This document shows, in pieces, positions 57,480-64,000 of a stretch of 64,000 nucleotides of DNA. Each line of letters begins with the position of its first letter. The first letter of the stretch is position 1. The position numbers and the translations under genes were made by a program. Under the pieces are notes generated by a model, which was not told the origin of the DNA, made no database searches, and saw only the letters and a program-made list of their open reading frames with translations. The DNA comes from Pseudomonadota bacterium (GTDB lineage: Bacteria; Pseudomonadota; Gammaproteobacteria; Burkholderiales; SG8-39): assembly GCA_947455195.1 (NCBI GenBank), contig CANGMI010000005.1:378609-442608 (forward strand), given 5' to 3'.

Positions 57480-58151
57480 TCAGGCGAGCGCAGCAGCGCC
57501 TTGCACGCCGTTGTCAGGACGGCGACGGCGCGTCATGAGTCCTGCCATCCCGAGGCCGCTCAGCATCAGCAGATAGGTCTCGGGTTCCGGCACCGCCGTC
57601 ATGCTGATTTCGGCCTGCGAAGCCGTTTGTCCGGGCGACGAGCGCCAGACGGTGAGGTTGTAACCACCGGTCGCCGCGCCGAGCGTGGTCGCCCACGTGT
57701 TGGCGACAGCATCGACGGTTGCGTTCACCGATCCGGCATAACTGCCGTCATAGACGACTTTCCAGAGGGCCTCCTGAAACTCGGCTGCCGTCGTTGCGTT
57801 GGTGACAGCGGCGTAGTGCTGCGTGAAGAGCTTGTCGATGTTGCTCTTCACCGTCGGGCTGAACACGCCATCGCTCGCGAGCGATGTCGGCGTGTACTGG
57901 GCCGGGGTGAGCAGCGTGTTCATGATGTCGACACAGAAGGCGTTGAAGGTCGTGCTGGTCGTGGTGTCGGTCACCGAGAACTCCGACGCCACCGAGGTGA
58001 CGTTGTTCGGGCTCGTGATCGTCACTGCCGGCGGGCTCGGATAGACGCTGCCGTTGTAGACGAGGGTGTCCGCGAGGGCGCTGCCTGCGCCAAGGGCGAG
58101 GACAACGGCGCAGGCCAAGTGTGACGGGTGTTTCTTGAACGTCGAAACCAT
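57480..58151 (-). CDS. PEP-CTERM sorting domain protein
   Basis: 223 residues from the ATG at 58151 with GGAG seven bases upstream. A signal peptide (ACAVVLALGAGSALA) is followed by a beta-rich, Thr/Ser-rich domain with VTSPNNVTSVASEFSV-like repeats and two cysteine-free halves, and the C-terminal VPEPETYLLMLSGLGMAGLM TRRRR motif that directs exosortase processing. No exosortase or EPS gene is in the window. It lies divergent from the sigma-54 activator. Confidence 0.87.
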   Translation of the reverse strand: MVSTFKKHPSHLACAVVLALGAGSALADTLVYNGSVYPSPPAVTITSPNNVTSVASEFSVTDTTTSTTFNAFCVDIMNTLLTPAQYTPTSLASDGVFSPTVKSNIDKLFTQHYAAVTNATTAAEFQEALWKVVYDGSYAGSVNATVDAVANTWATTLGAATGGYNLTVWRSSPGQTASQAEISMTAVPEPETYLLMLSGLGMAGLMTRRRRPDNGVQGAAALA

Positions 58152-58607
58152 GATGGTTCTCCATTGATTGAGGAGCATGCGTTTGAGGGACTTGCAAGGC
58201 TCATTCAATGTCATTGCTTCACGCGTGTCCATGCCGCGAGGGCGTCTATTCAGGGTGAATTGACCGCGATCACCTGACGCCGCGCAAGCTTGCGCGCGAG
58301 AGCATCGAGGCGCCCTGAACGTGCCTTCGCCTTCACTGGCAGAAGCCGTTCGAACGGTGCGGTGACGGGGGCTGACATCGCGTCCTTTACCGAGGTGGAC
58401 AGACGCTGGTGCAGCGGTCCACAACGCGGGCCTCCGATGATGCGTCTGGTATCGCGGGTCGGGTATCGATCGGCGCACCCCATCGACACCGGTTGACTCG
58501 TCTCAACTGCTTGTGGTCGTGCAGTCCTCAGAATCGGCGACTGCGACGAGGTGGCCATGCGAGCCCGTCCAGTACGCCGACCCGGTGGCCTGGTCCCGGA
58601 GGCGTCC
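58152..58607. other. 456-bp intergenic region with a 16-bp palindrome
   Basis: The region separates the PEP-CTERM gene and the sigma-54 activator gene. It contains the perfect palindrome CGCGCAAGCTTGCGCG at 58281-58296, about 130 bases upstream of the PEP-CTERM start. The minus-strand ORF 58250-58609 covers it but has no family features. A TTGCA -12-like element precedes the PEP-CTERM gene without a convincing -24 partner. Confidence 0.45.
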
Positions 58608-60017
<1,410 letters not shown>

Positions 60018-60109
60018 CCTCGGCGCAGGTTGCGGTCCGGAAGCACAGGTACCAGCAGGGGAAAACCTCGCGGTCGGTGTCGACCGCGCCACCAGGGAGG
60101 GGAAAGGCC

Positions 60110-61285
60110 ATGAATCAGTCGATGATGAAGAAGCCCGCAAACGGGGCTGGCGGTACGGTGCGCATCGGAGCAGGCGCGCCCCGAGCGGCAGGCGCGATGT
60201 CAAGGTCACTCCTGCGCGGTGTGCTGGGTCTGGTCGGGGCGGCCACCTTCCTTCACGCGGAGGGGGTCCTTGCGCAGGCGCAAGGTGCCCGCGGCTCTGC
60301 CCAGGGGCCTGTCGGTCAGGCGCCGGAAGCCGCAGGCAAACCTGCCGAGGTGGCGTCGATCTTCGAGCAACCCGGTGTCCTCACGGGGCCAGGCCGTCTC
60401 GTGCTCGAACCGTCGCTGCAGTACTCGTACTCGTCGAGCAACCGGGTGGCGCTGGTTGGGTACACCGTCATCCCGGCGATCAACATCGGACTCATCAATG
60501 TGCAGGAAGTGAAGCGGGACACCTTCATCGGGACCCTCACTACCCGCTACGGCCTCACCAACCGTCTCGAGATCGAATCGAAGGTGCCCTATGTGCATCG
60601 ATCGGACAGTCAGGTGGCTTTTCCGACCGGGCAAGGCTCGGGGCAGGCCCAGGTGTTCGACGCATCGGGCTCCGACGTCGGGGATGTCGAGATGACTGCA
60701 CGCTATCAGTGGAATGACGGCGGCGCCGATTCGGCCTATTACATCAGTACGCTGCGTCTGAAGAGCCGTACCGGTCGTGACCCGTTCCAGTCGGAACTCG
60801 CCACCAATTTCGGCACGACGTTCAACAACATCGCATTGCAACGCACGCTGCCTACCGGGTCTGGCTTCTATGCCGTTCAGCCAGGCCTCACGATGTTGTT
60901 GCCGAGTGACCCTGCCGTGTTCTTCGGCAGCGTCAGCTATCTGGCCAACATCAAGCGACATGGGGTCACGCAGAACACCGATCAGGGCGCTGCCTTCGTC
61001 GGCGACGTCGCTCCTGGGGCCATCATCGGGTTCAACTTCGGCATGGGCATGGCCATCAACGGCAAGACTTCGCTGAGCATCGGCTACGACCACGCCTCCG
61101 TTGGCAAGACCCTGATCAATGGCATGGCACCTGCAGGGGCGACGCGACTCGAACTCGGTACGCTGCTTCTCGGGTTCTCGCATCGAATCTCGGAGAGCCG
61201 CACCATCAACGTGTCGATCGGCGCCGGCATTACCCGAGATACGCCCGACTTGACGCTGACCCTGCGCCTGCCGTTCACGCTCTGA
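60110..61285 (+). CDS. Outer-membrane beta-barrel transporter (phenol-degradation MetA-pathway type; FapF-like candidate)
   Basis: 391 residues from the ATG at 60110 with GGGGAAAGG upstream. A signal-like segment (VLGLVGAATFLHAEGVLAQA) and a Gly/Ala/Pro linker with a short helical part precede the barrel. IFEQPGVLTGPGRLVLEPSL, then YGLTNRLEIESKVPYVHRSD and alternating strands to TPDLTLTLRLPFTL with terminal aromatic residue indicate a 12-strand-like outer-membrane protein. The family is called MetA-pathway of phenol degradation, but such barrels also serve as FapF-type amyloid pores; its position beside the C39 peptidase operon favours secretion. Confidence 0.75.
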   Translation: MNQSMMKKPANGAGGTVRIGAGAPRAAGAMSRSLLRGVLGLVGAATFLHAEGVLAQAQGARGSAQGPVGQAPEAAGKPAEVASIFEQPGVLTGPGRLVLEPSLQYSYSSSNRVALVGYTVIPAINIGLINVQEVKRDTFIGTLTTRYGLTNRLEIESKVPYVHRSDSQVAFPTGQGSGQAQVFDASGSDVGDVEMTARYQWNDGGADSAYYISTLRLKSRTGRDPFQSELATNFGTTFNNIALQRTLPTGSGFYAVQPGLTMLLPSDPAVFFGSVSYLANIKRHGVTQNTDQGAAFVGDVAPGAIIGFNFGMGMAINGKTSLSIGYDHASVGKTLINGMAPAGATRLELGTLLLGFSHRISESRTINVSIGAGITRDTPDLTLTLRLPFTL

Positions 61286-61354: not shown

Positions 61355-62035
61355 TCAGCGGCGCGTGGCGTTGACGAACCCGAACTGCAACGCCGTGTTG
61401 AGACTGATTGCCTTCAACAGCGCAAGGCTGTTCACGGTTGCGTCAATCACGGTACTGACGCTGAGCTTCTGATTGTCCATCGCGTTCTGAACCACCGTTG
61501 CCGGCACGACGACGCCGGCGATCGCGAGGCTCCCCGGACTGCCAGCCACGCTACCCAGTTGTGCATTCAGTTGGCGCGCCTGCTGGCTTGTCATCTGCGC
61601 GAGATCGGGAATGCTGATGACGGTCGAGGAGATCACCTGTCCGTTCTGGGTCACGGTGCGTGTGAGACCGATGCCCACCGTGAGTCCGCCGACATCGAAG
61701 CCACCGCGCACCTGGGCGAGCGACGCCGTATTGATGGCACTGCCCCATGTGGCGCTGGCACTGACGCCCGACCACGGTGGTGGCGGGGTAGGGCTTGTCG
61801 AACCGAGCGCCAGGCTCTCGGCCTCCAGAGCGGCGAGGCCGGGGTTGAACGCGGCATCCCAGGTGTCGCGACCCTCCAGTGCGTCGATCCTCTCGATGGT
61901 CTCCTCCACGGCACGGGAAAGGGTCGTCATCCCTGTGGGGAGGTCGTTGTATGACAGGCGCGCACCCGAACTGGGTGAAACGGGGAGAGTCAGCGCGAGC
62001 GCTGCCATCAGCATGGGGATCGATTGGGTGGCCAT
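61355..62035 (-). CDS. Secreted protein with internal double-glycine site, functional-amyloid locus
   Basis: 226 residues with a signal peptide (LMAALALTLPVSPSSGA). A Pro-rich linker (GSTSPTPPPPWSGVSA) leads to SAINTASLAQVRGGFDVGGL, then TVGIGLTRTVTQNGQVISST. The sequence INTASLAQVRGG resembles a double-glycine leader: hydrophobic at -12, -7 and -4 with Gly-Gly at -2/-1, the type of site cut by C39 peptidases. It lies two bases after the C39 gene, so it may be a substrate or accessory of the fibre system. I know similar RGGF...GLxxxxGIxR proteins in this context but no defined function. Confidence 0.6.
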   Translation of the reverse strand: MATQSIPMLMAALALTLPVSPSSGARLSYNDLPTGMTTLSRAVEETIERIDALEGRDTWDAAFNPGLAALEAESLALGSTSPTPPPPWSGVSASATWGSAINTASLAQVRGGFDVGGLTVGIGLTRTVTQNGQVISSTVISIPDLAQMTSQQARQLNAQLGSVAGSPGSLAIAGVVVPATVVQNAMDNQKLSVSTVIDATVNSLALLKAISLNTALQFGFVNATRR

Positions 62036-62037
62036 GA

Positions 62038-62748
62038 TCAGAAGTCGCCCGGGCTGAAGCGCCCCAGTGTCAGCAGTTGCAGCCCCTGCCGGTCGATGCC
62101 GCTCGCAAGGGGTGCCATCGGTGCTGCCTGCCAGTCGCTCGCCTGATCGAACCGGGCGTCGTTGTCGCGGTTGGTGATGACGAATACGATGCCCCCCACC
62201 CAGATCGCCTCGAAGGCCTGGCGAGGCAGGGAGCGCGTGCCTGCAGAGGGGTCGCCAAACAGCACGCGACCCGATTGCATGCCTTTCACCACCACAAAGT
62301 GGTTGTAGCCCGATTCCTTCACGAGCACGATCGCAGGCAGCTTTGCGTCCACCAGTCGGTCAAGCGTTACCTGGAAGCCATCGGCTTTCAGGCTGCGCCG
62401 CTCGAGATAGGTCTTCATGTCGAGCAGGGAAAACCCTTCGGCGCGAATGCGTGTCTGGTCACCTTGCTCGTACATTTCCTGAAAGGTTTGTGCTTCGGTC
62501 ACCGGGGTGCCGAACTGGTAGGTCAGCAGCGTTGCCAGCGCAGCCGAGCCACAGCTGAAGTCGTACTGCTGGTGCACCGTCGTCGCGAAGCGCCGCTCGG
62601 TGATGCTCTGGACAGGTACCGTGAGGTAGCTGCCGAATTCAGCGGGCAGCGCGATCGAGCCGGCCCAGCTCGGGCCGTCAGTTGCGGCCAGCAGCAGGAT
62701 CGAGCTTGCCAGTATCCGATGGAGCCAGGGGCGGAGTCGTGTCTGCAT
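62038..62748 (-). CDS. Periplasmic C39-family cysteine peptidase (FapD-like)
   Basis: 236 residues from the ATG at 62748 (GAGG seven bases upstream). A signal peptide (ILASSILLLAATDGPSWAG) sends it to the periplasm. The papain-like C39 triad: Cys in HQQYDFSCGSAALATLLTYQ, His in VKESGYNHFVVVKGMQ and Asp in RVLFGDPSAGTRSL. It lacks the ABC transporter domain of bacteriocin exporters, as does FapD of the Pseudomonas amyloid system. The neighbours with double-glycine motifs are probable substrates. Confidence 0.88.
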   Translation of the reverse strand: MQTRLRPWLHRILASSILLLAATDGPSWAGSIALPAEFGSYLTVPVQSITERRFATTVHQQYDFSCGSAALATLLTYQFGTPVTEAQTFQEMYEQGDQTRIRAEGFSLLDMKTYLERRSLKADGFQVTLDRLVDAKLPAIVLVKESGYNHFVVVKGMQSGRVLFGDPSAGTRSLPRQAFEAIWVGGIVFVITNRDNDARFDQASDWQAAPMAPLASGIDRQGLQLLTLGRFSPGDF

Positions 62749-62831
62749 GGGACTGCCTCGAGACGGGATTGACGGCAAGCAGGGCACCGGCACCCGGGGC
62801 GGCCTGCGCCACGATGGGCCTGCAGTGGGCA

Positions 62832-63215
62832 TCATTTGAGCTGCACGTTGACGATCGTCGAACTCTGGATCAGCACGTTGTTGCCCGAATTCTGAATGAC
62901 CACCGGCAAGCCCATGGCGTTGGCGAATGCCCCGTCGGCAATGGTGTTCGCGCCGGTGCCCAGGTTCGTCGCCGAGTTGTCGCTCACCACGCCGCTCAGT
63001 CGCGCGGTGCCCAGCACCTGGCTCAGGTCCTGCCCGCCGCGTTGTCGCGACAATTCATCGGTCGGGAGTGCGACCATCGCGCCGAATCGATGCGCGGTAA
63101 CGGCAACCGACACCTCCCTTGCCGCGACCGCCTCGGCCTCTGCCCACGCTGTGCCACGTACCAGGCTCAGCCCCATCGTTGCTGCCATGATCAGAAATTG
63201 TTGCTGCTTGTTCAT
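62832..63215 (-). CDS. Small secreted fibre-like protein with double-glycine leader motif
   Basis: 127 residues from the ATG at 63215 (AAGGGG six bases upstream) with a signal peptide ending in TAWAEA. Residues around 50-62 read ALPTDELSRQRGGQDLSQVL: L-x-x-x-E-L...GG fits the double-glycine consensus (E at -8, L at -7, GG). After it come LSGVVSDNSATNLGTGANTI and a C-terminal VVIQNSGNNVLIQSSTIVNV with Asn/Gln-spaced beta repeats reminiscent of amyloid subunits. I infer a minor fibre subunit or nucleator processed by the C39 peptidase. Confidence 0.65.
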   Translation of the reverse strand: MNKQQQFLIMAATMGLSLVRGTAWAEAEAVAAREVSVAVTAHRFGAMVALPTDELSRQRGGQDLSQVLGTARLSGVVSDNSATNLGTGANTIADGAFANAMGLPVVIQNSGNNVLIQSSTIVNVQLK

Positions 63216-63347
63216 CGCGAACCCCTTCTGCTGCTTGGCCGTGTCGATCAATTGCCGTCTGCGGGTGCGCTCGGCCCGCTGCCTCGCCGGGCAACGGGCC
63301 GGCGGCCCGGTGACTGCCGGACCGCCTGACCCCTGGTGCCGGACCGC

Positions 63348-64000
63348 TCAGCGACCCACTGTCAGATTGGACTGCACGTTGACGGCCTGCTGGATCGACG
63401 CTGCGATCCCGGTGTTCTGCGATATCACCATGATGCCGGCGGCGCTCTGCGCGACATTGCTCATGGTGTTCGACAGGTTGAATACCCCCGCACTCACGAT
63501 GTTCCGGCCACCGTTGCCACCGGCGCCACCGACGGCGCCATTGCCCACGCCACCGGCGCCACCGTTTCCGGCGCCACCGACGTTGGAGCCGCCACCGTCG
63601 CCGCCGGCTCCGCCATTGCCACCGTTGCCGCCGTTGCCGCCGTTGCCGCCGCTACCCGCAGTCGCGCTGCCGTTGGACGCGGTGACCGTGACGCTGCCCT
63701 GGGTTGCACTTCCCCCTGCGCCACCGGCCCCGCCGGTATTGCTGGCCGCAGCGCCCGCGCCGGCGGTCTGGTTGTTGTTGCCGCTGGTGGCCGATTGGGT
63801 GCCGGTCGAGCCGGCGCCGGCTGTCGCTGTGGAGGTCGACGTACCAGCCCCACCGGTGATCGAGGCCGTGCCATTGGTGGCACTGCCTGCGGTCGTCGTG
63901 TTGGTGCCGTTAGTCGTCGAACTCCCGGCGCCACCCGCACCCGCACTGCCACTGGCATCGGGGCTGCCGCCTGCGCCACCGGCGCCGGAACGGCTGCTGG
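63348..64000 (-). CDS. Gly/Asn/Thr/Ser-rich fibre-like protein (5' end outside window)
   Basis: The ORF track lists only the last 66 codons, but the frame stays open to the window end, giving at least 216 residues of a larger protein. The visible part is low-complexity (GAGGAGGS, STATAGAGSTGTQSATSGNN, GGNGGNGGNGGNGGAGGDGG), consistent with a repetitive secreted polymer. It ends with a conserved segment VFNLSNTMSNVAQSAAGIMV, then ISQNTGIAASIQQAVNVQSN, which resembles the C-terminal repeat of the small neighbour (VIQNSGNNVLIQ). I infer the major fibre subunit or an adhesin of the Fap-like locus. Confidence 0.65.
   Translation of the reverse strand, partial: SSRSGAGGAGGSPDASGSAGAGGAGSSTTNGTNTTTAGSATNGTASITGGAGTSTSTATAGAGSTGTQSATSGNNNQTAGAGAAASNTGGAGGAGGSATQGSVTVTASNGSATAGSGGNGGNGGNGGNGGAGGDGGGSNVGGAGNGGAGGVGNGAVGGAGGNGGRNIVSAGVFNLSNTMSNVAQSAAGIMVISQNTGIAASIQQAVNVQSNLTVGR

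Follow-up and report, generated by a model that had tools for sequence, protein, structure and literature searches.

In the Fap system of Pseudomonas, the closest described relative of the locus treated here, a C39 peptidase (FapD) acts in the periplasm, and its catalytic Cys is required for secretion of FapC, according to the part of PMC5557850 that deals with FapD. Passages of PMC6173800 give the FapD substrate as yet to be determined, a section of PMC10638192 states that FapD modifies FapC, and an excerpt of a 2025 review (PMC12822426) names FapE and FapF as presumed targets of FapD processing. An action of FapD on FapE has thus been suggested before, without the motif described below. Leaders of the kind read by the C39 peptidases ComA and LahT follow a rule: -12, -7 and -4, spaced along a helix, are hydrophobic, and GG, GA or GS comes next, as set out in passages of PMC10885120. 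Here we describe a peptidase locus at one end of a 64,000-nucleotide stretch (the window) of a Pseudomonadota bacterium of the lineage SG8-39 (assembly GCA_947455195.1, contig CANGMI010000005.1, positions 378,609 to 442,608), which encodes a signal-bearing C39 peptidase between two exported proteins. A sequence-only reading of the window had proposed that a FapD-like protease matures amyloid-type subunits in the periplasm at internal sites of the form E/L-x-x-V/Q-x-G-G in both neighbours. From a survey of relatives we consider it likely that the FapD-like peptidase matures exported FapE-like accessory proteins at a C39-type leader in the periplasm.

The locus shares with Pseudomonas Fap a signal-bearing C39 peptidase, a FapE-like protein encoded directly downstream and a FapF-type barrel, and Pseudomonas FapE carries the aligned motif LxxLRG[RK]Y. 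It differs in having Gly at position -1 of the motif, an extra small partner between the fibre genes and the peptidase, Gly-rich proteins instead of FapB and FapC, no FapA that we could see, a barrel gene that is convergent and not last in the operon, and a peptidase and barrel that score under the FapD and FapF cut-offs. The C39 fold, the catalytic residues and the -12/-7/-4 pattern with GG are held in common with the PCAT/AMS leader peptidases (ComA, LahT, PCAT1). Unlike these, the window peptidase is free-standing and signal-bearing, without an ABC transporter; its candidate substrates are of the Sec-exported type, with the leader internal and not at a cytoplasmic N terminus; and the FapE-like motif has a near-invariant Arg at -3 and, in the Fap clade, Arg or Lys at -1. 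In the putative Fil pilus system (FilA, FilB, FilC), whose FilB and FilC are the second-best NCBIfam matches of the peptidase and barrel, the partner DUF6160/FilA proteins show Lxx[VI]TGQ close to the mature N terminus, whereas Fil-type loci lack a FapE-like partner by profile and have Gln at -1. A search of the open-licence PMC literature (preprints outside its scope) found neither the shared motif and its leader pattern nor its extension to other families or the split from Gly to Arg/Lys described below.

The peptidase and the motif of its downstream partner

The peptidase belongs to Pfam family PF03412 (Peptidase_C39; 79.2 bits, cut-off 22) and is FapD-like only, scoring 142.3 bits against the 330-bit cut-off of the FapD equivalog NF058616 and 119.6 bits with the FilB model; together with the FapF-like barrel encoded beside it, this agrees with the protease assignment of the sequence-only reading. 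Q89 (the oxyanion Gln), C95, H179 and D195 were invariant in 83 aligned peptidases. An AlphaFold2 (AF2) model with a predicted local distance difference test score (pLDDT) of 86 has the papain-like C39 fold, the nearest structures being PCAT1 (8vp5, Z 17.2) and ComA (3k8u, Z 17.1), and it matches 6mpz, a protease with its leader peptide, with Z 16.3. The true start of the peptidase may be a later Met at codon 30.

In the FapE-like protein, a 226-aa open reading frame (ORF), the RGG codons of INTASLAQVRGG lie at 61708-61700 on the minus strand. The leader positions are I101 (-12), L106 (-7), V109 (-4), G111 (-2) and G112 (-1), with hydrophobic residues at -12, -7 and -4 and small residues at -2 and -1 as in double-glycine leaders. 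The FapE equivalog model NF058559 gave no match to this protein at E <= 10; its homology to FapE comes from profile similarity, a profile of its relatives with Gly at -1 aligning to the true FapE profile in hhalign (probability 95.3%, E 2.4e-8) over 39 columns at the motif and the opening part of the domain. One alignment of these Gly-clade downstream rows took in 35 of the 42. In Pseudomonas-type loci the downstream gene is FapE itself (344.9 bits against a cut-off of 250 in locus L128). Among NCBIfam models no leader-family match was found for either window partner at E <= 10.

Loci for comparison were picked by peptidase similarity alone. Wide regions were fetched for 80 peptidase matches, plus 15 named contigs, with duplicates and some low-scoring rows left out from match lists of 55 and 51 rows, resulting in 99 peptidase ORFs in 96 loci, the window locus counted in. 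Peptidase ORFs shorter than 165 aa were dropped to leave 97 rows, in 79 of which a FapE-like gene lies immediately downstream of the peptidase; the downstream alignment holds these 79 rows, one per peptidase. A profile search of 370 genomes of the class placed FapE-like proteins in 20 genomes, all among the 46 that bear the peptidase; every match adjoins a peptidase, and no orphan FapE-like gene was found away from one. The peptidase itself is patchily distributed: within the window's family, 7 of 98 genomes gave a match, and the two other genomes of the genus gave none. Locus L142 holds two sets of peptidase, upstream partner and FapE-like gene with identical scores and partners, and L135 holds two FapD-FapE sets.

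Conservation in orthologues, on which the sequence-only reading had staked its proposal, was found across the 79 downstream proteins, which keep [LM]xxxRG[GRK] with three single-residue departures overall, two at -3 and one at -2. Position -7 is L or M in all 79, -3 is R in 77, -2 is G in 78 (G or A in 79), and +1 is F or Y in 76. An L, I, V or M stands at -12 in 77 rows and at -4 in 58, and at -11, -10, -9, -8, -6, -5 and -3 in 0, 0, 3, 8, 0, 3 and 0 rows, respectively. When the 137 occupied columns of the alignment were ranked, G at -2 and R at -3 came highest after the start Met, followed by an Ala column and L/M at -7, with +1 in 8th and -1 in 10th place; the Ala column is, by eye, the end of the signal peptide. 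Both window sites do match E/L-x-x-V/Q-x-G-G, but that rule in its strict form was rejected, as V/Q at -4 is not kept in the relatives, and hydrophobic residues at -12, -7 and -4 followed by R-G-[GRK] describe the site better.

Taken alone, the two window matches are mildly unusual. The pattern [EL]..[VQ].GG arises in 2.3% of shuffles of the upstream and 2.7% of shuffles of the downstream protein (L...RGG in 0.4% and 0.7%, respectively), and among the 248 window ORFs of 90 aa or more it occurs in 9; the motifs stand above chance because they are conserved in relatives. A weight matrix built from 41 downstream motifs exceeded 14 bits in 74 of the 79 downstream and 12 of 43 upstream proteins, in none of the 99 peptidases and in 17 of 3823 other ORFs; among controls it did so in 1 of 4044 reversed and none of 4044 shuffled sequences. 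Six of the 17 other ORFs are copies of one Pseudomonas gene carrying LAETSLNEMLPGF, probably chance matches; inspected by eye, 9 of the other 11 are secreted proteins encoded in the same loci, and these include two linkers of FapF-like type and a FapE-like protein that the profile had not picked up. The idea that a GG pair alone makes a site at this locus was rejected, the Gly-rich proteins scoring -3.6 and -4.3 bits in spite of their many GG pairs.

Overall confidence in the AF2 model of the FapE-like protein of the window is low (mean pLDDT 64.7, predicted template modelling score 0.37). Its short helix at 103-109 (pLDDT below 50 at 106-109) and ordered beta domain from 118 would put the motif at the join of a variable propeptide and the domain. 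In three relatives (L017, from a contig of Woeseiaceae, L091 and L170) the FapE-like domain comes after a basic N terminus, a hydrophobic segment and some 200 coiled-coil-like residues, and LxxMRGG or LxxIRGG is kept just ahead of it. The best 19-residue hydropathy of the N-terminal segment is 2.0 in L017 and 1.53 in L091. If the hydrophobic segment anchors these proteins in the membrane, release of the domain would require a cut at the motif or close to it.

The upstream partner, position -1 and similar motifs

The small upstream partner is 127 aa long (139 aa from an upstream TTG), has one match only in the genome, and carries LPTDELSRQRGG with its RGG codons at 63041-63033 on the minus strand; Leu, Leu, Gln, Gly and Gly occupy -12, -7, -4, -2 and -1, respectively. 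Each neighbour of the peptidase has one L-x-x-x-R-G-G site on the minus strand, the two being those named in the sequence-only reading, and the sites are internal in exported proteins, judging by N-terminal signal-like sequences read by eye. The upstream alignment comprises 36 of 43 rows, with L100, L016, L149, L153, one L142 copy, L143 and L162 omitted; the L162 protein is FilA-like, and that of L100 misfits the motif. Among the 36, -12 is L, I, V or M in 33, and -7 is L or M, -3 R or S, and -2 G or A in every row. Compared with shuffles of the same sequence, 26 of the 43 upstream proteins scored higher with the downstream-trained matrix at p <= 0.01, and 35 of the 43 did so at p <= 0.05. It is plausible that the upstream partner is a substrate of the peptidase, with less certainty than FapE; it is the weaker candidate because its -1 residue varies.

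In the downstream proteins -1 is G in 42, R in 22 and K in 15. On a peptidase tree of 76 of the 79 rows (near-copies L024-L026 omitted) one branch with support 100/100 parts the peptidases with G at -1 (42) from those with R or K (34), and R and K swap about 7 times within the R/K side. The small upstream partner is present in 42 of 42 Gly loci and 0 of 37 Arg/Lys loci. This fits a peptidase and site that changed together once, and a single clade split cannot prove the cause of such a joint change. The strict GG of the sequence-only reading holds for the downstream protein only in the window's clade, not for Pseudomonas FapE with its RG[R/K] nor for the upstream partner, in which -1 is G in 17 of 36 rows.

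Similar motifs occur in other families. A small secreted family with a C-terminal [VLT]xLWDE-like segment (the 'LWDE' family), present in many Fap-like operons (L097, L100, L108, L112, L115, L120, L135, L136, L141), has sites such as VEDSELHEISGKG, VSDSVLHGVNGRG and LSAQELGEVSGAG. In the FilB-like loci L158-L162 and L123 the upstream partner has Lxx[VIA]TGQxG close to the mature N terminus, and the two such partners that were scanned (L162, L123) match the DUF6160 and FilA models. Small secreted proteins near distant periplasmic C39 genes, two of them (L163, L164) from the window's own family, carry LSDAELDDITAG, LSDAELDDVYAG and LSDADMDGVTAG, which are close to canonical leaders. Within the first 170 residues, 10 of the 92 FapF-like ORFs score above 8 bits: on inspection by eye, six have plausible linker sites (L140, L100, L165, L108, L091, L017), the matches of L115 and L102 were rejected as coiled-coil look-alikes, and two more (L139, L150) were sorted as neither. 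Among 27 FapA-like rows, [FI]xx[VI]x[SG]G can be made out by eye in the 15 that belong to Pseudomonas-type loci (L021-L028, L128-L134), and most of the others have no clear motif of this form.

Layout of the locus

The genes on the minus strand are transcribed in the order of two Gly-rich genes, the small upstream partner, the C39 peptidase and the FapE-like gene. The small upstream gene shares its last 4 bases with the peptidase ORF, and the FapE-like gene starts 2 bases after the peptidase; because of this spacing the three are probably co-transcribed. The fapABCDEF order with FapB/FapC repeats was not found here. Coordinates are given in Table 1.

Table 1. Features of the window and of related loci (positions with an L number refer to the fetched locus of that number)
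Feature	Position	Strand	Evidence
Periplasmic (signal-bearing) C39 peptidase, FapD/FilB-like, 265 aa	62038..62835	-	PF03412, NF058616, catalytic residues, AF2 model
FapE-like secreted protein, 226 aa, with a signal-like N terminus, then a propeptide (~86 aa), the motif and a beta-rich domain	61355..62035	-	
Leader-type motif INTASLAQVRGG (-12 to -1) of the FapE-like protein	61700..61735	-	Conservation in 79 relatives; AF2 position
Small secreted protein (upstream partner), 127 aa with its ATG at 63215; repeat-like segment VIQNSGNNVLIQ at the C terminus	62832..63215	-	
Leader-type motif LPTDELSRQRGG (-12 to -1) of the upstream partner	63033..63068	-	
C-terminal part of a 546-aa Gly-rich secreted protein running out of the window; candidate fibre subunit, motif-free	63348..64000	-	
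FapF-like outer-membrane barrel, convergent with the peptidase operon	60077..61285	+	NF058560, FilC matches
Sigma-54 activator with VpsR-type N-terminal domain; possible locus regulator	58551..60017	+	Position
FapE-like proteins with long N-terminal extension	L017:6677-7828; L091:5472-6683; L170:1294-2700		
Small secreted proteins near distant C39 genes	L163:3162-3476; L164:1110-1661; L126:5445-5747		

A second Gly-rich copy of 622 aa adjoins the 546-aa Gly-rich protein on its upstream side. The tandem pair (63348-64000 and L005:6957-10585) is more than 80% N/G/S/T/A/Q/D with a common C-terminal QQAVNVQSNLTVGR, and matching DNA stretches are 69-71% identical; both are candidate fibre subunits, and the part within the window had no match in Pfam or NCBIfam. 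The barrel scores 157.9 bits (E 3.3e-46) with NF058560, under the 700-bit cut-off, and 65.8 bits with FilC, and is called FapF-like only. The second half of the sigma-54 activator matches a PEP-CTERM response regulator model at 370 bits, under the cut-off of 502.6, and the adjoining gene (57480-58478) encodes a secreted protein ending in VPEPETYLLMLSGLGMAGLMTRRRR plus a short tail, PEP-CTERM-like. A scan for sigma-54 promoters returned 22 matches against an expectation of 10.3, which is too loose for promoter assignment.

Maturation at the motif and its alternatives

The locus is a candidate Fap-like amyloid or fibre secretion system, as read from its genes. Its exported accessory proteins would carry tandem N-terminal signals, a Sec signal that takes them to the periplasm and then a double-glycine-type leader read there by the free-standing C39 peptidase. 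The motif would be the recognition and cleavage site: the peptidase may, like ComA and LahT, bind the leader as a short helix by its hydrophobic positions -12, -7 and -4, which would place the R-G-G stretch in the active site, where Cys95, His179 and Asp195 would cut after -1, probably following R-G-[G/R/K]. In the true Fap clade the same site has Arg or Lys at -1. Cleavage would release the FapE-like domain from its propeptide (and probably the small upstream partner likewise), and the freed domain may then engage the FapF-like barrel and license fibre export. The candidate Gly-rich fibre proteins lack the motif, and the substrates are therefore likely to be accessory or minor subunits and not the main component of the fibre; among fibre-like proteins 1 of 97 passes 8 bits, and that one at the end of its signal peptide. 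Of the earlier proposal that amyloid-type subunits are matured here, maturation stands as a supported hypothesis, and the fibre candidates are unlikely targets.

Several observations weigh against this proposal. Known C39 peptidases cut after GG, GA or GS (PMC10885120, as summarized there for these enzymes), and 37 of the 79 FapE-type proteins have R or K at -1, which is foreign to such sites; when the peptidase columns that differ between the clades were listed, none was an obvious acidic S1 residue that would explain a basic preference, and these columns are confounded with ancestry because there is one clade split. In the upstream partner -4 is L, I, V or M in just 9 of 36 rows, and -1 is G in 17, R in 10, M in 4, K in 3, T in 1 and Q in 1, varying even in loci with GG downstream. 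By profile, 18 of 97 peptidase rows have no FapE-like partner, and the downstream profile contains the motif, so relatives without the motif could be missed. In the mass spectrometry of Pseudomonas UK4, as given in the relevant portion of PMC5557850, roughly the first 70 residues of FapE were missed and FapA peptides were found throughout; the motif lies at about residue 40 of Pseudomonas FapE precursors, and the gap is thus larger than the predicted removal. Moreover, the barrel and peptidase genes are nearly always together, so linkage cannot tell which of the two the motif serves.

That last point favors a role of the motif for the FapF-like barrel or the FapE fold, with the peptidase as an incidental neighbor; the residues after the motif are conserved too and a FapF-like ORF is present in 92 of 96 loci. 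We nevertheless regard such a role as improbable, since the -12/-7/-4 pattern is that of C39 leaders, and similar motifs occur in the upstream small proteins, the 'LWDE' proteins and a few FapF linkers. Hardly more probable is a motif that docks the peptidase, or serves a chaperone function, without being cut, which would accommodate R, K and M at -1 and has a parallel in the catalytically inactive C39-like domains of type I secretion systems (mentioned in a passage of PMC5557850); against it, the catalytic residues are invariant in 83 of 83 aligned peptidases, and Cys38 of Pseudomonas FapD is needed for secretion (PMC5557850).

A peptidase that reads the motif but cuts one residue earlier, after -2, leaving G, R or K as the new N terminus, is unlikely though the strongest of these alternatives. 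It draws on the G or A found at -2 in 79 of 79 downstream and 36 of 36 upstream rows while -1 varies, and it would let one enzyme use GG, GR, AK and GM sites at one locus, but the -12/-7/-4 spacing in ComA and LahT substrates puts the cut after -1, and the peptidase clades split with the -1 residue. It is scarcely credible that two meaningless matches were drawn from the GG pairs common in Gly-rich secreted proteins: [EL]..[VQ].GG alone does appear in 2-3% of shuffles of each protein, but conservation over 79 downstream and 36 upstream rows contradicts chance, as do the negative scores of the very Gly-rich proteins of the locus.

Maturation of FapE-like proteins after -1 may be one case of a general periplasmic pathway, an extension that we put forward tentatively and at somewhat less than even odds. 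In it, Sec-exported proteins of Fap, Fil and related peptidase-barrel systems would carry a second, C39-type leader behind the signal peptide, the partners being FapE, the small upstream partner, 'LWDE' proteins, Pseudomonas FapA, some FapF linkers and DUF6160/FilA proteins, and one peptidase branch would have shifted its preference at -1 from Gly to Arg/Lys. If true, this shift would explain why Pseudomonas Fap proteins showed no recognized canonical C39 site. The motif of the FapE family makes the question of the FapD substrate a simple biochemical test, as it predicts the bond and the residues to mutate, and it would extend the idea of the double-glycine leader from the cytoplasm to the periplasm.

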